A stretch of DNA of 56,694 bases from Balneolales bacterium (GTDB lineage Bacteria > Bacteroidota > Rhodothermia > Balneolales > Natronogracilivirgulaceae). The translations under genes and the position numbers were made by a program. Below the pieces are notes generated by a model. The model made no database searches, was not told the origin of the DNA, and saw nothing but the letters and a program-made list of their open reading frames with translations. The DNA lies in contig SLKA01000041.1 of the NCBI GenBank assembly GCA_007134845.1, positions 1 to 56,694 of the forward strand. The letters run 5' to 3'. Of this stretch, positions 3,078-30,984 are shown piece by piece (the stretch's first letter is position 1; each line of letters starts with the position of its first letter).

Positions 3078-3557
3078 ATGATTATCAGCATGATCGCTGC
3101 ACATGATCTAAATCTGGTTATTGGCAGGGATGGAACGCTTCCCTGGCACATCCCGGAAGATCTGGCGCATTTCAAAAACAGAACTAGCGGGCACTCTGTA
3201 ATCATGGGACGCGGCGTATTCGAGGAGCTTGGGGAAAAGCCGCTTCCCCGCAGAAGGAATATCGTACTTAGTCGCAGCAGGACCTATGACAACGTGGAAG
3301 CATGTAAGAACAAACAGGAGGTATTTGAGCTGCTTCGCAATGAAAAAAAGATCTACATTATCGGCGGGGAGCAAATATATCGTCTTTTTTATCCCGATAG
3401 TACACGACTGGAAATGACAGTTATTCATGAGAACTATGAGGGAGACACCTTTTTCCCGGACTACCGGGCAGATATAGGCAGTATCTGGAAGGAGATATAC
3501 AGGCAGGACAGGGCAGGTCTTTCGTTTGTTGATTATGAACGAATCCGCCAGAAATGA
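3078..3557 (+). CDS. folA: Dihydrofolate reductase
   Basis: FolA reduces dihydrofolate to tetrahydrofolate with NADPH and completes the thymidylate cycle started by the preceding thyA. The 159-residue protein has the classic N-terminal IAAHDLNLVIGRDGTLPWHIP, where LPW lines the folate pocket and the acidic residue of IPEDLAHFK is the proton relay. The NADPH motifs VIMGRGVFEELG and IYIIGGEQIYRLF follow. The ATG at 3078 is the last of several candidate positions in a CATCATCATG run. Its stop codon overlaps the start of the M1 peptidase gene (ATGA at 3554-3557), so the three genes appear translationally coupled. Metabolically the peptidase is unrelated. Confidence 0.97.
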   Translation: MIISMIAAHDLNLVIGRDGTLPWHIPEDLAHFKNRTSGHSVIMGRGVFEELGEKPLPRRRNIVLSRSRTYDNVEACKNKQEVFELLRNEKKIYIIGGEQIYRLFYPDSTRLEMTVIHENYEGDTFFPDYRADIGSIWKEIYRQDRAGLSFVDYERIRQK

Positions 3558-5335
3558 AAATATACGACAGTTTTCATATTGTGATGCATGTAATGCTTGT
3601 GATGCTGCTTGTCAGCAGTGCTCTTATGCCGGATGTTCCGGTAATTGTACCACTGAGTGAATATGAAAACAATATCCTCGACTCCGGTGGCAAGCTGGTG
3701 GAAGAACAGGCGGCTCTGGACGTATATTATTATGAACTGGATCTGACGATTGATCCCTATGACAGTACGATCAACGGCAGCGTGCTGATGCAATCCCATG
3801 TCATGCGGCAATTGGATACCTATGTTGCTCATCTGGACACTGTATTTGATGTTCACCATGTCCATTACCACCATCCGGATGATGAATCGCCCCTCAGGGC
3901 GCTTGATTTTACCCATGAAAATGGATTGGTGATCGCTCAGCTACCCCATAAGCTGGAACCGGGAGAAAAGCTGAAAATAACTGTTTTCTATTCCGGAAGT
4001 CCGAGAATGGCGCCAAATCCTCCCTGGGAAGGAGGGTTCACCTGGGACCGCACCGATAACGGTGAGCCCTGGTTTGGCGTTTCATGTCAGGTGAATGGAG
4101 CGGATATCTGGTGGCCGGTGAAGGACCATCCTTCAGACCGCCCGGACTCTGTATCGCTGTCGATCACCGTGCCTGAATCACTGACCGCCGTCTCCAATGG
4201 CGTGCTTCGGTCTGTGGACCAGCGCATGCCCGGCACGAAAACCTTTCACTGGGTGACCAGGCATCCTATCAGCAACTATGCTGTAACCGTGAATGCAGGT
4301 CCCTATGTTGAACTTGAAAGAAAATACGAAAGCATCACCGGCCAGGTTTTTCCAATCTATTTCTGGGCGCTTCCCCGGCACCGGGAGAAAGCTGATGAAC
4401 TGATGGACCAGATTGTGCATCAGATGCGCTTCCTGGAGCAGCTTCTGGGGCCTTATCCGTACAGGGATGAAAAATACGGTGTTGTGGAAGCACCGTTTTT
4501 CGGCATGGAACATCAGACCATTATTGCATATGGCGCCGGATATCAGAATGATACGGTATTCGATACCAATTCCGGTTTCGATGATCTGCACCATCATGAA
4601 CTTTCACATGAGTGGTGGGGCAATCTTGTGACTGCTTCCGACTGGAAGGATTTCTGGATTCATGAAGGATTCGGAACCTATATGCAGCCGCTTTACGCCG
4701 AACATCTGCATGGCAAGGAGCAGTATCGTTACTTTATGAAGCGCCTTTATCAGCGTATTTTAAATAATTTGCCCATTGCACCTGATGAGAGCCGGACAAC
4801 GAGAGAGATGTTCGATGGCAGAGATATCTATATGAAAGGAGCATGGGTGCTTCACACACTTCGAAAACTCATAGGCGATGATGCTTTTTTCACGACGCTG
4901 GCTGAAATGACGTATCCGAATACGGTCCGTCCGTCCCGACCATACGGAAACTCCGGGGCTTCGGATTATCGGTTTAATAGTAACGCAACGACCGGATCCA
5001 AATCCATTAGTGAAGTGCCGGCCCGGTTTACAGACACCCGGGATTATATCAATCTGGTCCGGGTAATAACGGGCCAAGACCTGAAATGGTTCTTTTACAC
5101 CTATCTGAAGCACAGTGATCTGCCGGAACTATTAAAAAAATGGGACGATGATTCTCTGATACTTTCATGGTCCACGCCATCAGACTACGATTTTCCCATG
5201 CCTGTGGAAGTGTGCGATGGTCAAAACTGCATGTCGGTGATACCTGATGGTGAAACTGCGATAAATATACGGCATCGGGATGAATTGAAAATTGACCCCC
5301 ACAACAAAGTGCTGCGGTCGGGGCTTTATCGTTAA
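3554..5335 (+). CDS. M1 family metallopeptidase (secreted aminopeptidase)
   Basis: This is a zinc aminopeptidase of the gluzincin M1 family, predicted to be exported because the first ~25 residues form a hydrophobic signal-like stretch. The active site looks intact. The zinc motif HELSH is at residues 348-352 in HHHELSHEWWGN, and the third ligand is Glu371 in WIHEGFGTY. A GAMEN-like exopeptidase loop reads FFGMEHQT, and a catalytic-tyrosine region reads IYMKGAWVLHTLR. The beta-sandwich N-terminal domain precedes the catalytic domain. The 593-residue length fits a short M1 protein without the C-terminal superhelix. It overlaps folA by four bases. A second, inactive M1 relative lies at 23230-25557. 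Confidence 0.9.
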   Translation: MKIYDSFHIVMHVMLVMLLVSSALMPDVPVIVPLSEYENNILDSGGKLVEEQAALDVYYYELDLTIDPYDSTINGSVLMQSHVMRQLDTYVAHLDTVFDVHHVHYHHPDDESPLRALDFTHENGLVIAQLPHKLEPGEKLKITVFYSGSPRMAPNPPWEGGFTWDRTDNGEPWFGVSCQVNGADIWWPVKDHPSDRPDSVSLSITVPESLTAVSNGVLRSVDQRMPGTKTFHWVTRHPISNYAVTVNAGPYVELERKYESITGQVFPIYFWALPRHREKADELMDQIVHQMRFLEQLLGPYPYRDEKYGVVEAPFFGMEHQTIIAYGAGYQNDTVFDTNSGFDDLHHHELSHEWWGNLVTASDWKDFWIHEGFGTYMQPLYAEHLHGKEQYRYFMKRLYQRILNNLPIAPDESRTTREMFDGRDIYMKGAWVLHTLRKLIGDDAFFTTLAEMTYPNTVRPSRPYGNSGASDYRFNSNATTGSKSISEVPARFTDTRDYINLVRVITGQDLKWFFYTYLKHSDLPELLKKWDDDSLILSWSTPSDYDFPMPVEVCDGQNCMSVIPDGETAINIRHRDELKIDPHNKVLRSGLYR

Positions 5336-22283: not shown

Positions 22284-22353
22284 GCGTTACAATTACTGCG
22301 TTACATTTACGGTATTACAGATACGGTGTTACGGTTGCGGTGTCGCACCCGGT
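22284..22353. repeat. Degenerate 14-bp tandem repeat, about five units
   Basis: Between the divergent tex and hisN starts the sequence can be cut into 14-base units: GCGTTACAATTACT, GCGTTACATTTACG, GTATTACAGATACG, GTGTTACGGTTGCG and GTGTCGCACCCGGT. The first four share a KNGTTAC-like core at a constant register. The period is not a multiple of three, so it is not a coding repeat. It may be a slipped-strand array or a set of protein-binding sites for the shared promoter region. Confidence 0.55.
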
Positions 22354-22403
22354 TCTGTTCAGTATGGAAGTGCCAAATATATCAGCTCGAAATTTTATTT
22401 ACA

Positions 22404-23183
22404 ATGGATTACAACAGAAAAGAAGAATTACTGCAGTTTGCGATCTACCTGGCGAGAACTGCGGGAAAAAAAACACTAGCTCATTTTAGAAAAGATATTG
22501 ACGTTGACCGGAAGGGGGACGATTCCCCGGTGACCGCTGCCGATCGGGAAGCCGAAAAATGGATGAGAGAGCGCATCATCGAAAAGTATCCGGAACACGG
22601 TATTGTGGGCGAGGAATATGGCACAGAAGGTGGGCAGAAGTCCATCAAGTGGATTCTGGATCCGATTGACGGTACGCTGTCGTTTATTCACGGCATTCCA
22701 CTGTACACCACGCTCATTGGCATCACAATTGATGATGAGCCGGAGATGGGAGTGATCTATGCTCCGGCAACCGATGAGCTTTGTGAGGCCGGCATCGGGC
22801 TTGGTGCCCGCTATAACGGACAGGATTGCCATATGTCCGGAACGGCATTGCTCAGAAAGGCAACACTTCTCAGCACAGATATGACTACAATCATAAGCCA
22901 GGGACTGGAAAAACCATTTCGGACCCTGCTTGACGAGTGCCGGATTCACCGGACCTGGGGAGATGCGTACGGACATATGATGGTGGCAACCGGCCGGGCT
23001 GATATCATGTTTGATCCGCTTCTGAATATCTGGGATGCCGCTCCTCTGCTTCCTATCATGCAGGAAGCTGGTGGTGTTTTCCTCGATTTTTCTGGTCATG
23101 CCGTTATTGACAGCGGTCACGGTTTCTCATCCAACGAAAAACTTGCAGAAATTGTATTGTCTGTTTTGGAATCCGGGGGCTGA
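22404..23183 (+). CDS. hisN: Inositol-monophosphatase-family phosphatase, histidinol-phosphatase-like
   Basis: This is a magnesium-dependent phosphomonoesterase of the inositol monophosphatase/FBPase fold, 259 residues. The metal motifs are VGEEYG, DPIDGTLSFIHGIPLY and the late WDAAPLLPIMQEAGG. The DPIDGT-SFIHG form, rather than DPLDGTTNF, is typical of HisN histidinol-phosphatases, the penultimate step of histidine synthesis, and GDAYGHMMVATGRADIM also fits that group. Assignment over a general inositol or sugar phosphatase is inference. The ATG at 22404 begins the first helix; upstream in-frame sequence runs into the tandem repeat. No other his genes are in the window. Confidence 0.82.
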   Translation: MDYNRKEELLQFAIYLARTAGKKTLAHFRKDIDVDRKGDDSPVTAADREAEKWMRERIIEKYPEHGIVGEEYGTEGGQKSIKWILDPIDGTLSFIHGIPLYTTLIGITIDDEPEMGVIYAPATDELCEAGIGLGARYNGQDCHMSGTALLRKATLLSTDMTTIISQGLEKPFRTLLDECRIHRTWGDAYGHMMVATGRADIMFDPLLNIWDAAPLLPIMQEAGGVFLDFSGHAVIDSGHGFSSNEKLAEIVLSVLESGG

Positions 23184-23229
23184 TCTTTGTTCAAATACTT
23201 TATAAACCACGAATAATATTCTTAACAGC

Positions 23230-25557
23230 ATGATATATAATTTATTAATAGCTGTCATTTCAAATATTTCTATAATATTGTCCGGCTTATGGATGCCGCT
23301 TTATGGCTTGCCTCAGGATAAAGGTGATTATCCCGTCAGGCCATTGGCTGAAGTTCATTACACTAGCCTGGAAGTGCAGCTTGAGGCTGGTTTTACGGAC
23401 AGGACCATACGTGGATCAGCCCATTACAATTTTCGCCCGAAGCACGCGCATGTGGAGAGCATGTCATGGCTGGCACCCGGAATGGATATACTGGAGCTTC
23501 GGATTAATGGACAGGAAACGGCTTACAGGGTGGAAAACGATTCCCTTTTCATCCCATTTGAAGTCCACCCGGATCCGGGGCAATCATATTCGATAACCAT
23601 TTCATATGAGACCAGGCCGACTTTCGGAGTTCATTTCAGACATACAGGCACCATATTTTCATCCACGCTTCCCGGAAGTGTTGCTCACTGGCTGCCCGGT
23701 CCCATTCACCCCGGAGTATCATTACCGGTGACCATACGTATGGATATACCTGAGGGACAAACCGCTGCTGCAACCGGTTCGCTTGACAGGCGGGAAGATA
23801 CCGATAACGGCAATCGCTACACCTACGCAACAGGTAGTATGGTGCCGATCTCAGAGCTCTTTTTTGCCGTTGGCAACTTTTCCGTAGAAGAATCTTTTTC
23901 CGGAACAAAAAATCTGAGAGTTTATCATGAGAACGGAGCTCTCGAGGATGAGCTGGCACGGGAAATCCTCTCGTACATGGTCCTCCGCACACGTGATTAC
24001 GAGCGGTACTTTCGAAGCGAACTGCCGGTCCCGGCTTTTCATGCCGTTATTCTTGCAGATGATATGTGGGAAACCCGGCCATATGCAGCAGGCGGGGCGG
24101 TATTTTCCAGCAGCGAAGAAAATATCAAAGCCTGGCTGTCTCGTTCTCTGGCAGCTCAGTGGTTTGGTATTTCACTGCGTCCTGAGCGCTGGATTGATTC
24201 ACGGCATATCACGTTGCTTCAGGCATTGGTGGCCGAAGAGAATGATGATCCGGAATGGGACCCGTCTCCTGATCCACTGGAAGAAGCCTTCAGAGTGCCC
24301 GAATCCTTATACAGTCAGCAAGGCATGGATCAGTGGCAGTGGTCACGGCATTTTCTGCGAGAAAAAGCATCACCTGTGATGCTGAATGCATTGCAGTCTT
24401 TGATGAGTGAATTTGCAGGTATGAATGGCGTTCATGACGCCGATGATTTTACCGGCAGACTTTACAACAAAACCGGCAGGTGGATGGAGCCTCCGAATGT
24501 CACAAAACCTGAACCGGAACCGGGATACAGATACAGGGTCATCGTTGCCGAACCAAGAGGATCGGATCGGCTGTCATTCATATTCATACCGCTTGAGGAT
24601 CAGGCAGATAAGACGTTCAATGCAAATGTTTACCGGATTCGGGACGGCGAGATTCATGAAAAGGCGGTGACTTTTCATGGTGCCGGAGACACTTTGGAAG
24701 TTGCTTTTGGTGGACATTCCAGCAATGTCTGGATAGAAGCTGCAGATGATTCCGGTGTTCAGTTTGAATCTGATAAACCGTTTTCTTTCTGGCTTTACCA
24801 GATGCGCAGGGATGAGCGGCCAGAAAAAAGGAGGGAAGCGGCTCTGGCTTTGAAAGATCATGCCTCGGATCCGGATTTACAGCTAGCAGTGCAGGATATG
24901 CTGAGTCAGGAGCAAAATACCGAAGTACTGACGGCGATGTACCGGCTTATGGCGGAATTGACATCTGGAGCCAGTGGTACGGAAAGACGTTTTTTTGAAG
25001 GCATTGCATCCCGGCATCCGGAAATTCGCTTGGTATCCATGCAGGCTTTGAAGTCCTATCGCGGTAATACACAGGTTGAGAACCAGGTACTCTCCGTAAT
25101 TCAGGAATCCGATGATATTCCACTTGTAAATGAAGCTATCCGCACCTACAGGCACTTGATTGAAGAGGATGCGTTCCGCGATTTTGCTATTCAATTTCTC
25201 AGAGAAGACCGGCAGGAGCAGCTCTTCACAAAAATGCTGCTGGAAGAATTGTTCAACGTTCGGGTGGTTGAACAATCTGTAAGTACTGCCGCTGAATACC
25301 TCAACCAGGGCTATTCTTTTGATATCCGCTGGCTGGCCTTCCGCCAGCTTGGCAGACATGCTCAAGGGGGGGAGTGGCAAGTTGATTTTGTGAAGAATTT
25401 TTCCGGTGATCCGGATCCCAGAATTCGTTTTATCACCCTTTTTTCTGTCTCCCAGCTTGATTTACAGGATCAGGGACCTTTTTTAGAGTCACGTATGTTG
25501 GTTGAGTACGATATTCGTATATTAAAACAGGCAAGCAAACTGGCTTCAACAGAATAG
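23230..25557 (+). CDS. M1-peptidase-like protein lacking zinc ligands, with C-terminal HEAT-like repeats
   Basis: The 775-residue protein begins with a hydrophobic signal-like segment (5-30). It then has an M1-type beta-sandwich with YRPLAEVHYTSLEVQL-like strands and a catalytic-domain remnant. The zinc motif HELAHQWFG is here RSLAAQWFG at 305-313, so both His ligands and the Glu are gone (Arg305, Ser306, Ala309). The WLNEGFA helix reads WIDSRH from 321, removing the third ligand. The GAMEN loop is AAGGAVFSS. From about 540 to 770 there are repeated helix pairs resembling HEAT/armadillo repeats. It is predicted to be an exported, non-catalytic binding or scaffold protein. An active M1 gene lies at 3554-5335. 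Confidence 0.7.
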   Translation: MIYNLLIAVISNISIILSGLWMPLYGLPQDKGDYPVRPLAEVHYTSLEVQLEAGFTDRTIRGSAHYNFRPKHAHVESMSWLAPGMDILELRINGQETAYRVENDSLFIPFEVHPDPGQSYSITISYETRPTFGVHFRHTGTIFSSTLPGSVAHWLPGPIHPGVSLPVTIRMDIPEGQTAAATGSLDRREDTDNGNRYTYATGSMVPISELFFAVGNFSVEESFSGTKNLRVYHENGALEDELAREILSYMVLRTRDYERYFRSELPVPAFHAVILADDMWETRPYAAGGAVFSSSEENIKAWLSRSLAAQWFGISLRPERWIDSRHITLLQALVAEENDDPEWDPSPDPLEEAFRVPESLYSQQGMDQWQWSRHFLREKASPVMLNALQSLMSEFAGMNGVHDADDFTGRLYNKTGRWMEPPNVTKPEPEPGYRYRVIVAEPRGSDRLSFIFIPLEDQADKTFNANVYRIRDGEIHEKAVTFHGAGDTLEVAFGGHSSNVWIEAADDSGVQFESDKPFSFWLYQMRRDERPEKRREAALALKDHASDPDLQLAVQDMLSQEQNTEVLTAMYRLMAELTSGASGTERRFFEGIASRHPEIRLVSMQALKSYRGNTQVENQVLSVIQESDDIPLVNEAIRTYRHLIEEDAFRDFAIQFLREDRQEQLFTKMLLEELFNVRVVEQSVSTAAEYLNQGYSFDIRWLAFRQLGRHAQGGEWQVDFVKNFSGDPDPRIRFITLFSVSQLDLQDQGPFLESRMLVEYDIRILKQASKLASTE

Positions 25558-25577
25558 CACCATATACCACTTTTTTT

Positions 25578-25841
25578 ATGAATTACATCATTAAACTTCC
25601 TCCGAAATCCAAGCGAGATGACATCATTGATGCATGGGTCAACGATGTGCTGCATGATCATGACTACAGCAGGCTCCGCGCCACACTGAATCAGCTAATT
25701 GAAAGTGGTTTCAACAGAGATGGTGTTATGTTCATGTATCTGCACCGTGCGACTCATGAGATTGCGTGCAAGAAAATCGCACAGCATTCGCAGTATGATC
25801 TGGCAGAAATTGCCTTCAGCAATCCCATCAGCCTTAACTAA
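25578..25841 (+). CDS. Small hypothetical protein (87 residues)
   Basis: I do not recognise this gene. The 87-residue product is predicted cytoplasmic, with no signal or membrane segment. It looks helical, with a run RDDIIDAWVNDVLHDHD and RLRATLNQLIESGFN. Three His and two Cys-containing stretches are scattered rather than in a metal-like motif. It begins 20 bases after the M1-like gene on the same strand and may be co-transcribed. Its last four bases overlap the end of the convergent ABC permease gene. The open frame, its spacing and its start ATG support it as real, with modest confidence. Confidence 0.55.
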   Translation: MNYIIKLPPKSKRDDIIDAWVNDVLHDHDYSRLRATLNQLIESGFNRDGVMFMYLHRATHEIACKKIAQHSQYDLAEIAFSNPISLN

Positions 25842-27121
25842 TTTTCACGAATCCACTTCCAAAGCTCCCTGAAGCTGGCTTTTTTCCCGTACATGAGTAT
25901 TCCGGTTCGGTAAATTCTGGAGCTCAGCCAGATAAGGATAATGAACGTGAGGATCATCAGAAGTATGGTTCCCCCAAGCTGCCAGAGCGGAATCGGCAGC
26001 ACCGCCATTCTCACAGGCATCAATATGGGTGCGAAAAAAGGCACCATGGACAAGACAACCGATAATGTTGAAGCCGGATCATCGGAGACGGGAAAAAGAA
26101 ACATAAGAGGGATGATAATCAGCATGATGATCGGCATCTGAAGCTGTTGACTGTCCGATTCCTGATCGACTGCCGAGCCCACTGCTGCAAACAGTGAGCT
26201 GTAGATTAGAAACCCGAGCAGAAAAAAGAGAACAAAACCAACCCATATGATCGGATTGATGTAAGGAATGCTGAAAGCAGCAGCTTCAGCAGCAGCCTCT
26301 GTCGATTGCACTGAGCCGGAATCACCACCCATGAACAGTGTGACAATAGGACCTGCAACCACCATCAGGGCGGCTCCGGCACCGGCCCATATGGCAAATT
26401 GCGTGAGACCGAGAAGGGCAACACCGGTCACCTTTCCCATCAAAAGCTCAAATGGCCGGACAGAGGAGGCGATCACTTCAACAATCCGGCTTGTTTTTTC
26501 TTCCATCACACTTCTCATAATCACCGCTCCGTATGCGAACATGGCCCCGTATATGATGAAGCCCATGATAAAGCCCAGGAACATGTAGAAACCACTGTCG
26601 GCCTCTTCTTCACCCTCTGCGGTAATCGTTAGATTCTCTGTCTGTACCCGTTCGGCCAGTATGGCTCGTACTTCAGCAGGGGTGTCGATCCGGTCAAGCC
26701 GGATGTCGCGCACTATTTGTTGTACATCCGACCGGATACGTGAAGTAACGGTCATGCCGGCTGTACCTCCGTGGTAGAATGAAACTTTCCCCTTACCGTC
26801 CAGTATCTCATGTGGTATGAGCAGGTAGCCTTCAATGTCACCGGTGATCAGAGAAGCCCGCAGCTCGTCAGGCGGATTGGTGGTAATCCGGTAGTAAACA
26901 GAATCTATGCCAACCAGTTCCTGTCCAATCTCGCCGGTCTCGTCATAAACAAGAAATTGCCGCTGCCGGTCAGCTGACATTGTTTGAATCAGCGTCGGGA
27001 GTATAAGCAGAAGTATCATCACTACCGGGGCCAGAATGGTGGTCACAATAAAGATTTTGCTTCTAAGCCGGGTCAGATATTCCCTTTGGATGATGAGCAG
27101 AAGTTTCTCTTTTTGAATCAT
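25838..27121 (-). CDS. ABC-2 type transporter permease (NatB-like)
   Basis: This inner-membrane protein of 427 residues forms the channel of an ABC exporter with the ATPase encoded just upstream at 27131-28030. It has an N-terminal helix (LRSKIFIVTTILAPVVMILLLIL), a periplasmic domain of about 130 residues, and five or so C-terminal helices including GFIIYGAMFAYGAVIMRSVMEEKTSRIVEVIASSV split across a cytoplasmic loop. The EEKTSRIVEVI motif is characteristic of the ABC-2 permeases of the NatAB sodium exporter type. Substrate is not deducible; sodium or drug export is possible. Stop overlaps the small gene on the other strand. Confidence 0.88.
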   Translation of the reverse strand: MIQKEKLLLIIQREYLTRLRSKIFIVTTILAPVVMILLLILPTLIQTMSADRQRQFLVYDETGEIGQELVGIDSVYYRITTNPPDELRASLITGDIEGYLLIPHEILDGKGKVSFYHGGTAGMTVTSRIRSDVQQIVRDIRLDRIDTPAEVRAILAERVQTENLTITAEGEEEADSGFYMFLGFIMGFIIYGAMFAYGAVIMRSVMEEKTSRIVEVIASSVRPFELLMGKVTGVALLGLTQFAIWAGAGAALMVVAGPIVTLFMGGDSGSVQSTEAAAEAAAFSIPYINPIIWVGFVLFFLLGFLIYSSLFAAVGSAVDQESDSQQLQMPIIMLIIIPLMFLFPVSDDPASTLSVVLSMVPFFAPILMPVRMAVLPIPLWQLGGTILLMILTFIILIWLSSRIYRTGILMYGKKASFRELWKWIREN

Positions 27122-27130
27122 TGTATGATT

Positions 27131-28030
27131 TTATTTGGATACCGAATCAATAAATATTTCCTGAATGCTGGGCTGCACCAGTTCGAAGGTATGTATTCTT
27201 ACGTGATTCTGTGCATCACGGAGAATTTGCTGATCATCAGCACCATCCAGCAGCCGGAGTTCCGCATAATTTGTAGAGCGGTTGTTGATGCGGATATTTT
27301 TCAGGTCATTCAGAAAACGACTGTCTCCGCTGAAGCGCAGACGGATGCTGTTCTGGCCATAAGACGAACGGATTTCAGCGAGGTTTCCATTCAGAATGAG
27401 CTGACCATTGTTGAAAAGTGCAATTTCGTCACAGAGTTGCTCAACCTGCTCCATTCTGTGAGTGGCAAAAAAAATAGTTTTTCCGGCGTCTCTGAGTTCC
27501 AGAATGACTTCCTTTAACATTTCGCTGTTTATGGGGTCCAGTCCGCTGAATGGCTCATCAAATATGAGACAGTCTGGGTCATGAGCAATGGTAGCCACAA
27601 ACTGGATCTTCTGTTGCATGCCCTTTGACAGTTCGCCGACCTCCTGACCTATCCAATCGTAAGCACCAAACCGCTCCAGCCAGTAACGGATGCGCTCCCG
27701 CGCCGTCTGGCGTGATAATCCTCTCAGGCGGCAAAGGTACACAAGCTGTTCGCCGACTTTCATCTTTTTGTAGAGACCGCGTTCTTCCGGTAGATAACCG
27801 ATCCTTTTCTGGGTTTCAGGGCCGACAGGCTGCCCAAACATGGATATCGATCCCGAATCCGGTTTAAGTATATAGGTGAGCATGCGTATGCTGGTTGTCT
27901 TGCCGGCGCCATTGGGTCCAAGAAGACCGAAGATACGGCCGCTCCTGACACTGAAACTGACATTATCCACAGCCCGGGTACCACCGAATTGCTTGGTTAC
28001 TTCACGAAATTCAACGATGGAATCGTTCAT
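27131..28030 (-). CDS. ABC transporter ATP-binding protein (NatA-like)
   Basis: This 299-residue cytoplasmic ATPase powers the adjacent permease. It has Walker A GPNGAGKT at residues 38-45, Q-loop GYLPEERGLYKKM, signature LSKGMQQKIQF, Walker B LIFDEPFSGLDP and the H-loop FFATHRMEQVE. The modified signature (LSKGMQQK) and YLPEERGLY pattern are typical of the NatA subgroup, with a C-terminal DUF4162-like domain at about 215-299. The permease starts 9 bases downstream, so both form one operon. The gene is divergent from glgA across a 237-base gap. Confidence 0.92.
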   Translation of the reverse strand: MNDSIVEFREVTKQFGGTRAVDNVSFSVRSGRIFGLLGPNGAGKTTSIRMLTYILKPDSGSISMFGQPVGPETQKRIGYLPEERGLYKKMKVGEQLVYLCRLRGLSRQTARERIRYWLERFGAYDWIGQEVGELSKGMQQKIQFVATIAHDPDCLIFDEPFSGLDPINSEMLKEVILELRDAGKTIFFATHRMEQVEQLCDEIALFNNGQLILNGNLAEIRSSYGQNSIRLRFSGDSRFLNDLKNIRINNRSTNYAELRLLDGADDQQILRDAQNHVRIHTFELVQPSIQEIFIDSVSK

Positions 28031-28267
28031 GTGTCATTTATTGTTGATGAATAAAGCATCTTTAACGAAAGGAAATCCCGAAAATAAAGTTTGTAAGATA
28101 GTCTTTGAATTTCTTATATACATGTTGAAAGTGTAATCATTCGATGTGGCATTGCATCGGGAACAGAACATTATAAATTCAACATTATAATTTCTTAGTA
28201 ATCGGTTGATTTCCCAGGATTACAGTAAAGGTTTTTTCATACGCACATAACAGAAGAAAAGTTTCGC
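28031..28267. promoter_or_regulatory. Divergent promoter region between ABC exporter and glgAC
   Basis: This 237-base AT-rich region separates two divergently transcribed operons and must hold both promoters. A direct repeat AACATTATAA occurs at 28167-28176 and 28181-28190, spaced 14 bases apart. A short inverted repeat CGATG(N8)CATCG lies at 28142-28159. None is a recognised operator. Confidence 0.35.
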
Positions 28268-29710
28268 ATGCAGGTAATTCACATAAGTTTTGAGTGTTAT
28301 CCGGTTGCAAAAGCCGGCGGACTGGCCGATGTTGTCGGTGCACTTCCAAAATATTTACAGCAATTCGATGTCGACTCATGGGTTGTCATGCCTCACTTTG
28401 ATATCGAATGGGTACGAAATCACGAGTTTGAGACCGTCCACCAAGGCATTGCCCGTCTTGGTGAAGAGAGGTTTGATTACCGGATTATGCACGAAGCCGG
28501 TGGTGTGCTCGGATTTCCACTCTATCTTGTGGACATTCCCGGAAGACTCGATCGTACGGGCATATACATTGATTCCCAAAGCGATTTTCCTTATTGGGAT
28601 GATTTTGAACGGTTTGCATCCTTTCAAATCGCAGTTTTGGACTGGCTGAAATCCTTCAGCAAAAAACCGGACATCATCCATTGCCATGACCATCATACGG
28701 CACTGGTTCCATTTCTGATGACCAGCACACCGGTATATCACGAATTCAGCTCCATTCCAACGGTGCTTACCATTCACAACGGACATTACCAGGGCTGGTA
28801 CGATCCGGGAAAACGGTTTCTCCTGCCGAAAATTGATCCGGAACGGGAGGGATTTCTCTACTGGAACGGTCAGATCAATGCATTATCAGCAGGTATTCGC
28901 ACTGCCTGGAAAATCACAACAGTATCGGAGTCTTATCTTCACGAACTGCAGCACACATGCAAGGGACTTGAGTCGCTTCTTTCTTATGAAAGCAGCAAGT
29001 CACTGGGCATAATCAACGGTATCGATACGGATGTCTGGGATCCTTCCACCGATCCGCTCATCGCAACCAACTACAACTCGAAAACATTTCCGGAAGGCAA
29101 GCTGAAGAACAAGAAGTGGCTTTGTGACCAGTTTGGTTTTGATCCCAACCTGCCTCTTTTTTCCTTTATAGGAAGACTTGTTGATGAAAAAGGGGCTGAC
29201 ATCCTCCCGGATCTCATAACCCGTTATCTGGAAACCGGGTTCAAGGGCAGCTTTCTCGTACTGGGCACAGGCGAGCAGTGGCTGCATCACAGATTTCAGG
29301 AGATAAAGGGACAGTACGTTGATTTTTTTGATGCATCCTTAACCTACAATGAAAAACTGGCACATCGGATGTATGCAGGCAGTGATTTTCTGATTATGCC
29401 TTCCCGCGTGGAGCCATGTGGATTAAACCAGATGTATGCCATGCGATATGCCACGCTCCCCATTGTCAGAAGTGTCGGCGGCTTGAAAGATACGGTGATC
29501 GACTACTCCGAGCCCGATGGCTACGGCATCCTGTTCGACCATTTCAGTCTGGATGATGCCTATTATGCAGTACAGAGAGCTTCGACAGTCTATTCTGATG
29601 CGCATCTGATGAAAAAGCTGCAGAATAGAGCTGTTTCAAGAGACTTTTCCTGGCATAATTCGGCGAAAAAGTACCACAATATGTACAAATCATTAATCAT
29701 GGAGAAGTAA
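28268..29710 (+). CDS. glgA: Glycogen synthase (ADP-glucose)
   Basis: GlgA is a GT5 glycosyltransferase that adds glucose from ADP-glucose to alpha-1,4-glucan. The 480-residue protein opens with the donor-binding motif VAKAGGLADVVGALP and has the second Rossmann domain motifs FIGRLVDEKGADIL, PSRVEPCGLNQMYAMRYATLPIVRSVGG broken here by position, and DTVIDY. These are the usual EPCGL and KTGGL-like features. It lies two bases upstream of glgC, which supplies its substrate, so the pair is a compact glycogen operon. A purine-rich AGAAGAAAAG lies before the ATG. There is no branching enzyme or phosphorylase in the window. Confidence 0.95.
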   Translation: MQVIHISFECYPVAKAGGLADVVGALPKYLQQFDVDSWVVMPHFDIEWVRNHEFETVHQGIARLGEERFDYRIMHEAGGVLGFPLYLVDIPGRLDRTGIYIDSQSDFPYWDDFERFASFQIAVLDWLKSFSKKPDIIHCHDHHTALVPFLMTSTPVYHEFSSIPTVLTIHNGHYQGWYDPGKRFLLPKIDPEREGFLYWNGQINALSAGIRTAWKITTVSESYLHELQHTCKGLESLLSYESSKSLGIINGIDTDVWDPSTDPLIATNYNSKTFPEGKLKNKKWLCDQFGFDPNLPLFSFIGRLVDEKGADILPDLITRYLETGFKGSFLVLGTGEQWLHHRFQEIKGQYVDFFDASLTYNEKLAHRMYAGSDFLIMPSRVEPCGLNQMYAMRYATLPIVRSVGGLKDTVIDYSEPDGYGILFDHFSLDDAYYAVQRASTVYSDAHLMKKLQNRAVSRDFSWHNSAKKYHNMYKSLIMEK

Positions 29711-29712
29711 CT

Positions 29713-30984
29713 ATGATGGAATCAACCATAGCCGTTATACTAGGTGGCGGAGCTGGCAGCCGCCTTTATCCGCTCACAAAAAGCAGATCAAAACCGGCTG
29801 TTCCGATTGGGGGGAAATACCGTCTGGTGGACATCCCCATTTCCAACTGCCTTCATTCTGACATTCGCCAGATCTATGTGCTAACCCAGTTCAATTCGGC
29901 TTCCCTGAACCAGCATATCAAGAATACATATCTCTTCGATGCATTTTCAAGAGGGTTTGTTGATATCCTTGCGGCAGAGCAGACACCCAGTTCACATCAG
30001 TGGTTTCAGGGAACGGCAGACGCTGTACGCCAGACATTCCGTTACCTGCAAAATCACCGGGCGGACAGAATCCTGATCCTCTCGGGTGATCAGCTTTATC
30101 AGATGAATTATCGTCAAATGATGGACGATCACGAAGCAATGAATGCCGGGCTTACGATCGGAACCATCCCGGTAACAGCCCAGGATGCAACTGGTTTTGG
30201 CATCATGAAAACAGATGACAAGGGAATGATCACCAGTTTTATTGAAAAACCCACCATGGAGCAGCTTGACGGATGGGAGTCGGAGGTGCCCGATGAACTC
30301 AAAGCCCAGGGAAAGGTCTATCTGGCATCCATGGGGATTTATGTTTTTAACATAGATACGCTCTGGAATCTCATCAATGACAATCCCGAAGCTGTTGATT
30401 TTGGAAAGGAGATCATCCCGAAAGCAATATCATCAAAAATGAATGTTGCCAGCTATAAATACACCGGATACTGGACAGATATTGGAACCATACGCTCTTT
30501 CTACGATGCCAATCTCGAGCTGGCGGACCCGCTTCCACAGTTTGATCTGTATGCCCAGGGCAAGCGGATATTTACACGGCCTCGTCTGTTGCCACCGACG
30601 AAATTGTTCGGAACCAGTGTCGACCGTGCCCTTATAGCAGAGGGATGTGTAATTGAAGCCGATTCCATTTTTCATTCCGTTATCGGAATCCGGTCACGCA
30701 TTGGTGCAAATACCACGATTTCCGAATCAATTGTGATGGGAAATGATTTCTATTCCACGCTCGAAGAGCTGGAAGAAGTCAATCCGGAGATGCCTCACCG
30801 GGGAATTGGAGCCGGTTGCCACATCGAACGGGCCATCGTTGATAAAAATGCCCGGATTGGTAATAATGTAAAAATTACAGGCGGTTCCCATCTGGAAAAC
30901 ACGAGCAATGAAAACTACTCCATAATCGATGGTATTGTGGTGGTTGAAAAGAACGGTGTAATCAAAGATGGTACGGTGATATAG
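29713..30984 (+). CDS. glgC: Glucose-1-phosphate adenylyltransferase
   Basis: GlgC makes ADP-glucose from ATP and glucose-1-phosphate, the committed step of glycogen synthesis, and feeds glgA upstream. The 423-residue protein has the nucleotidyltransferase opening AVILGGGAGSRLYPLTKSR, the KPAVPIGGKYRLVDIPISN substrate motif, GTADAVRQT and ILSGDQLYQMNY. A C-terminal left-handed beta-helix region (about 290-423) is typical of the allosteric ADP-glucose pyrophosphorylases. Start is at ATG 29713; an equally possible ATG is at 29716. Regulation by glycolytic intermediates is expected from the family but cannot be read from sequence. Confidence 0.95.
   Translation: MMESTIAVILGGGAGSRLYPLTKSRSKPAVPIGGKYRLVDIPISNCLHSDIRQIYVLTQFNSASLNQHIKNTYLFDAFSRGFVDILAAEQTPSSHQWFQGTADAVRQTFRYLQNHRADRILILSGDQLYQMNYRQMMDDHEAMNAGLTIGTIPVTAQDATGFGIMKTDDKGMITSFIEKPTMEQLDGWESEVPDELKAQGKVYLASMGIYVFNIDTLWNLINDNPEAVDFGKEIIPKAISSKMNVASYKYTGYWTDIGTIRSFYDANLELADPLPQFDLYAQGKRIFTRPRLLPPTKLFGTSVDRALIAEGCVIEADSIFHSVIGIRSRIGANTTISESIVMGNDFYSTLEELEEVNPEMPHRGIGAGCHIERAIVDKNARIGNNVKITGGSHLENTSNENYSIIDGIVVVEKNGVIKDGTVI

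Follow-up and report, generated by a model that had tools for sequence, protein, structure and literature searches.

A conserved, probably exported M1-fold pseudopeptidase with a HEAT superhelix in Balneolales and its possible role as a scaffold

What does an M1 peptidase do once its zinc site is gone and its reading frame is kept? The question is raised by a 775-amino-acid frame, free of internal stops, at positions 23230-25557 (+ strand) of contig SLKA01000041.1 (GenBank assembly GCA_007134845.1), from a 2.6-Mb Balneolales metagenome-assembled genome. The window is the whole stretch analysed here, 56,694 nucleotides; the individual genes and domains given below with their window coordinates lie on its + strand. 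A sequence-only reading had described the product as an exported, conserved M1 pseudo-enzyme with a binding role, and had named structure prediction and the conservation of the substituted positions in relatives as checks. The present analysis shows that an M1 aminopeptidase ending in HEAT repeats (HEAT-M1) was converted to a non-catalytic form and conserved as such. With a probability of roughly 60%, this probably exported protein now serves as a scaffold or binding protein comparable to TAF2.

The active site is lost at every position that matters for catalysis. For comparison, 37 M1 proteins of active type that have their HExxH on the contig were aligned with the window protein: its RSLAA (residues 305-309; 24142-24156) falls exactly on HExxH, and Thr328 occupies the column of the third zinc Glu. 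The loss of HExxH and of the third Glu had already been read from the sequence. The catalytic-Tyr context is also missing. GxMEN anchors substrate N-termini in M1 peptidases, and the strand that carries it is replaced by the segment D277-W280-E281...G288 (24058-24093). Since the zinc ligands, the general base, the Tyr context and the amino-terminus anchor are all lost, M1 zinc peptidase activity is excluded for this protein, as far as its residues can tell. The QWFG that follows HExxH is kept (residues 310-313; 24157-24168).

The M1 layout is not a chance resemblance, because the profile-profile comparison with active HEAT-type M1 proteins by hhalign extends over 730 columns with the E-value 9e-54; against the intermediate relatives described below, which combine M1 and HEAT, the E-value is 3.9e-62. 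Single-sequence searches were far less informative. PF01433 (Peptidase_M1) gave no match to the window protein even at E 0.01, and no match was obtained in PHROGs or with phmmer against PDB. NCBIfam returned only a weak match to leuko_A4_hydro (E 0.0005), and HEAT_2 scored 34.5 bits. A scan of the genome contigs with the single protein found no relative, whereas an alignment-based scan did recover relatives, and the family profile searched against PDB matched LTA4H (1.9e-20, the top match) and TAF2 (7e-20). By descent, the protein belongs to the M1 superfamily, as a non-peptidase homologue.

AlphaFold2 was supplied with 68 proteins from the window and related loci (set A3, the window protein and 67 of 68 candidates). 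The resulting model is of high confidence (predicted local distance difference test, pLDDT, 92.3; predicted template modelling score, pTM, 0.85) and shows the multi-domain M1 fold, with HEAT helices at its C-terminal end. Foldseek placed first TAF2 in human TFIID (7edx_B; E 9.8e-30, template modelling score 0.51), followed by M1 aminopeptidases. With VIA-align, Z-scores ranged from 33.1 to 38.1 among the 50 entries listed. Approximately residues 31-429 fit the M1 peptidase 6ifg of Deinococcus radiodurans closely (Z 34.8, root-mean-square deviation (rmsd) 3.5 over 374 residues), whereas whole-chain fits reach Z 38.1 with an rmsd of about 7-13. The C-terminal part of the model therefore probably has a different orientation.

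Five parts can be recognized along the chain. A probable Sec signal peptide with a weak n-region (residues 1-27; 23230-23310) is indicated by helix 2-26, low pLDDT at residues 23-29 and family statistics. It is followed by the M1 N-terminal beta domain (residues 31-235; 23320-23934), with strands 42-234 and the fit to 6ifg, and by the former catalytic domain (residues 236-429; 23935-24516), which is shorter past the HExxH position in the alignments and in the model. A beta-sandwich domain (residues 430-515; 24517-24774; strands 433-515) leads to the HEAT-like helical superhelix (residues 516-775; 24775-25554; helices 518-773; PF13646), the most conserved region of the protein. The HEAT-like region noted from the sequence is thus present, but HEAT-type M1 proteins normally end in such a region, and it is no addition. 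Export was also claimed there, and can be called probable only: a strong hydrophobic N-terminal stretch is found in 82 of 85 aligned family members, with lysine or arginine ahead of it in 81 of 85, but the n-region of the window copy has neither residue.

The protein is widespread in the order. It was present in 93 of 97 sampled relatives, and a class-wide profile search gave matches with E-values no higher than 1.4e-111 in 113 of the 128 genomes of the order; of the remaining genomes, five gave a weak match only (2.6e-6 to 9.2e-10) and ten gave none. Residues were counted in 85 aligned members (set A1), which omit L009, L015, L017, L021 and L090 from the first 90 loci fetched; the fragments L015 and L017 have no residues across the motif region. 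HExxH occurs in 0 of these 85 order-wide members, and GxMEN likewise in none. The first zinc His is Arg (R305) in 70 of 85, the catalytic Glu is replaced by Gly, Ala or Ser in 72, and the second His gives way to Ala, Gly or Ser in 73 and persists in two. The site is not uniform: Arg305 is lacking in 15 of the 85 members, and 21 of the 85 show Glu in the column of the third ligand. The NEGFA-type context of the third Glu was absent in all 23 sampled Balneolales rows. QWxG after the lost site is retained (Q 83/85, W 83/85, G 84/85). The pseudo-enzyme assignment therefore extends from the window copy to the order, and the substituted positions are themselves conserved.

The frame is open in all 90 loci fetched first. 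The ratio of nonsynonymous to synonymous substitution rates (dN/dS), calculated by the Nei-Gojobori method for the 14 closest pairs, is 0.107-0.247 for the whole gene in every pair and 0.04-0.20 for the former pocket (residues 251-345). The M1 shell and the HEAT superhelix are under purifying selection, and the low ratios over gene and pocket argue that the dead site is not drifting, in agreement with the earlier view that random decay does not explain it. With its intact frame, purifying selection and missing catalytic residues, the window protein is best described, at the sequence level, as a conserved pseudoenzyme.

Relatives elsewhere in the class form a graded series. Their locus type, common to the families f9-f13, f15, f19 and f21 as far as the contigs reach, includes a gene for a LolA-like protein, a gene for a flippase-like protein (both names rest on a reading of the sequences rather than on family matches), the M1 gene, rlmB and, between these two, a small open reading frame (ORF), which was undetected in f21. 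In f9, f12, f13 and f15, the full-length matches are M1 proteins with HEAT in which the catalytic domain is better kept and the zinc site is gone; examples are LLARQWFG for HELAHQWFG and WLTDG for WLNEG, and the catalytic Tyr is absent in its usual context. Arg occupies the first-His position in most Balneolales and the second-His position in several of these relatives. Degraded sites at the shared locus type were recognized in L164-169 and L177. PF01433 scores L165 at 90.8 bits, above the Pfam cut-off, although its zinc ligands are all gone, scores L218 at 21.8 bits, below it, and does not match L171. HExxH is absent in all 18 members read from f19. At the end of the series, all three genomes read from f21 (L264/G238, L265/G243, L274/G240) encode at the orthologous locus a protein of 412-415 amino acids with a signal-like start, a beta domain and HEAT, lacking both the N-terminal and the catalytic domain of M1.

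At the other end of the series, the genome G150 of f10 has two partial genes at two ends of the shared locus type. L175 (C73) has an intact HELAHQWFG. L172 (C155), a C-terminal half, keeps WLNEGFATYL and the Tyr context, and its HExxH position lies off the contig. The two halves are not identical, which suggests a tandem pair or a strain mixture in G150. L172 and L175 are the closest active-looking relatives. The sequence-only reading had held that it would fall if homologues at the same locus kept HExxH and this copy showed frameshifts. An intact HELAH does occur at the class-wide locus type, in another family (L175), but the frame of the window copy is unbroken, and the reading stands.

The number of losses was examined on trees from which the active-site columns had been removed. 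The careful tree, built from 40 of the 83 aligned rows, unites L175, L172 and all 20 pseudopeptidase rows of this lineage in one group (support 100/99). L175 is placed outside the pseudopeptidase rows, and L172 inside them, beside a row from f12 (99/97). In a quick tree of 53 of 83 rows, in which 30 were omitted as long-branched, redundant or thought dispensable, a clade of all 27 pseudopeptidase rows without L172 was rejected by the approximately unbiased test (p 0.0116). This rejection hinges on L172, whose HExxH position lies beyond its contig: either the zinc site was lost repeatedly, or the unseen HExxH of L172 is also lost and a single loss in the lineage fits the tree. Two additional losses occurred independently inside the active HEAT-M1 clade, in L273 (G150:C9, SVAHQWFG) and L259 (G151:C15, GLASQWFG). 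A long stem (1.51 changes per column) leads to the Balneolales group, so that any placement of its exact sister is provisional; the quick and careful trees differ.

How the protein may work can be proposed as follows. A probably exported HEAT-repeat M1 aminopeptidase has lost its zinc ligands, catalytic Glu and Tyr, and substrate-anchor residues, while the M1 shell and the HEAT superhelix have been retained. By analogy with TAF2, its present job is most likely that of a periplasmic scaffold or adaptor, with the HEAT surface and the remodelled M1 shell holding partner proteins together. This role is favoured because the shell and HEAT are conserved across the order, because the gene is under purifying selection and because an end state with HEAT and no M1 catalytic core exists. 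HEAT is probably the part that the protein cannot do without, since one family keeps only beta and HEAT at the same locus in three genomes. A wider version can be put forward tentatively, in which a HEAT-M1 aminopeptidase became a core envelope scaffold throughout the class, perhaps repeatedly; HEAT would do the work and the shell would erode stepwise until one family discarded it.

Several observations weigh against a scaffold role. Conservation of HEAT is by itself no proof of scaffolding, and the former pocket is nearly as conserved as HEAT (0.465 versus 0.475), which fits a ligand-binding pocket as well. No strong match was found in 15 of the 128 order genomes, and these include all nine genomes of g29 (G073, G088, G121-G127) and both of g33 (G093, G094). 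Among eight genes compared, the pseudopeptidase evolves fastest, with a within-genus identity of 53.7-62.6% versus 72-92% for its seven neighbours. The Balneolales neighbourhood suggests no obvious partner for an exported pseudopeptidase, and none was identified. Finally, the gene has a HisN-like gene and an ABC transporter as neighbours in Balneolales but LolA, a flippase-like gene and rlmB elsewhere in the class, so that the context names no complex.

The main rival is that the remodelled pocket is still in use and binds, but does not cleave, a peptide or small ligand. The protein would then act as a chaperone or binding protein. Such a role was proposed for yeast Tma108, whose M1 pocket binds nascent chains according to the accessible part of a review of inactive homologues (PMC11266112). 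The low dN/dS and the conservation of the pocket segment speak for it, as do the newly conserved D277 (77/85), W280 (78/85), E281 (72/85) and R317 (76/85) alongside R305. Against it, GxMEN is gone, which makes a simple peptide-binding pocket less likely than a scaffold; the binding role proposed in the sequence-only reading is an inference. The catalytic domain is also shortened behind the site, and f21 discarded that domain and retained beta and HEAT. No covariation of R305 with an acidic partner, as expected for a salt bridge replacing zinc, was detected; E281 and D277 are outside the 15 most associated columns, and R305 is thus uncoupled from both. Binding in the pocket is possible but doubtful.

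It is improbable that the protein acts as a pseudo-subunit, either regulating an active M1 peptidase or pairing with one. The genome of the window does hold two active-type M1 genes. However, no genetic linkage to an active M1 gene was seen, and a match to set A2 at E 1e-40 or better was found in only four of the 92 genomes of f3, most of which carry the pseudopeptidase (f3 accounts for 92 of the 128 order genomes). Three of these four matches lie in frames of 447-557 amino acids and one in a frame of 900. Shorter M1 proteins do occur in f3, so that this explanation is only weakened. Even less probable is an enzyme with a new site, zinc-independent or differently liganded: conserved Arg, Asp, Glu and Trp residues surround the old site, but the replacements vary by lineage, with Arg at the first or the second His, unlike one new catalytic set. 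A decaying pseudogene or annotation artefact, to which the rapid evolution of the gene and its absence from the small g29 and g33 genomes might point, is hardly credible, being already contradicted by the open frames, the low dN/dS and the order-wide presence.

The gene directly upstream (22386-23183) encodes an inositol monophosphatase (IMPase)/HisN-like protein (PF00459; TIGR02067, 259.6 bits) and is a conserved neighbour. Of the 67 loci, the window among them, whose upstream sequence exceeds 900 bp, 62 have it ahead of the pseudopeptidase gene on the same strand; in 54 of these 67 the distance lies between -58 and +169 bp. Downstream and convergent, an ABC-2 permease gene is found in 53 of 74 loci, an ATPase gene in 49, glgA in 44 and glgC in 41, as raw counts uncorrected for contig ends. 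The conserved neighbourhood supports orthology within the order. The arrangement at 22326-30984 of the window, IMPase-pseudopeptidase, convergent ABC-2 permease/ATPase and glgA-glgC, is kept across much of the order with no evident functional link. A short ORF (cluster c18; about 25557-25838 in the window) follows the pseudopeptidase gene in eight loci of the family of the window, f1. In f1, only tex lies between rlmB and the HisN-like gene, and this order may be a faint trace of the class-wide locus. The genera g29 and g33, where no strong match was found, are Balneolales with small genomes (1.4-2.7 Mb).

The window also encodes, at 3554-5335, an active-type M1 peptidase (HELSH, WIHEG context, PF01433 73.7 bits), as noted earlier. 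It has no HEAT tail and is a distant paralogue; the nearest active paralogue in the genome is a HEAT-M1 protein of 906 amino acids on the same contig (G000:C71:84560-86260). Active HEAT-M1 proteins of Bacteroidota (for example L215-L217, L220 and C71:84560-86260) share the order of N-terminal beta, catalytic, beta-sandwich and HEAT domains with the pseudopeptidase family, but they keep HExxH, whereas the family has neither HExxH, GxMEN nor the contexts of Tyr and the third Glu.

TAF2, which is not known to have a zinc site either, is an M1-fold protein inside a large complex; it is the closest counterpart by Foldseek and also came up in the PDB profile search. It differs in being nuclear and eukaryotic and in contacting DNA, whereas the window protein is bacterial and probably exported; the identity in the Foldseek alignment is 14%. 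The aminopeptidase region of Taf2 in TFIID consists of four subdomains, according to the part of the source available (PMC6220335). LTA4H and 6ifg resemble the model in fold over roughly residues 31-429 (Z 33.5-34.8, rmsd 3.3-3.5, about 372 residues) but are active zinc peptidases. Tma108 is a yeast M1 pseudopeptidase with a proposed non-catalytic role; in the window protein, by comparison, the zinc site is wholly lost and export is probable.

M1 pseudopeptidases as such are already known. What metallopeptidase pseudoenzymes do is known mainly from eukaryotes. In the accessible portion of the inactive-homologue review (PMC11266112), Tma108 is named for M1; there, the term TAF2 is absent and "bacteri-" appears twice, both times in reference titles. 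The available text of a Cyclonatronum paper (PMC6243061) counts MEROPS peptidases and homologues and names no M1 pseudopeptidase. Gone early (PMC4242634) was considered for comparison and left unused, as it is a neprilysin homologue and not M1. Literature searches, whose coverage mostly excludes subscription journals, found no paper on this pseudopeptidase family.

The label "M1 family peptidase" on HEAT-bearing proteins of this class can mislead, as L165 illustrates. The M1 pseudoenzyme described here is bacterial and has been retained in almost the entire order, and an active-type form, intermediates and the HEAT-only end state are found among its relatives. Two questions are thereby made testable: by which route a zinc enzyme turns into a scaffold, and what is held together by this conserved envelope protein. 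If the tentative class-wide version is correct, bacteria would offer a counterpart to the way in which TAF2 arose, with each intermediate stage still to be seen.
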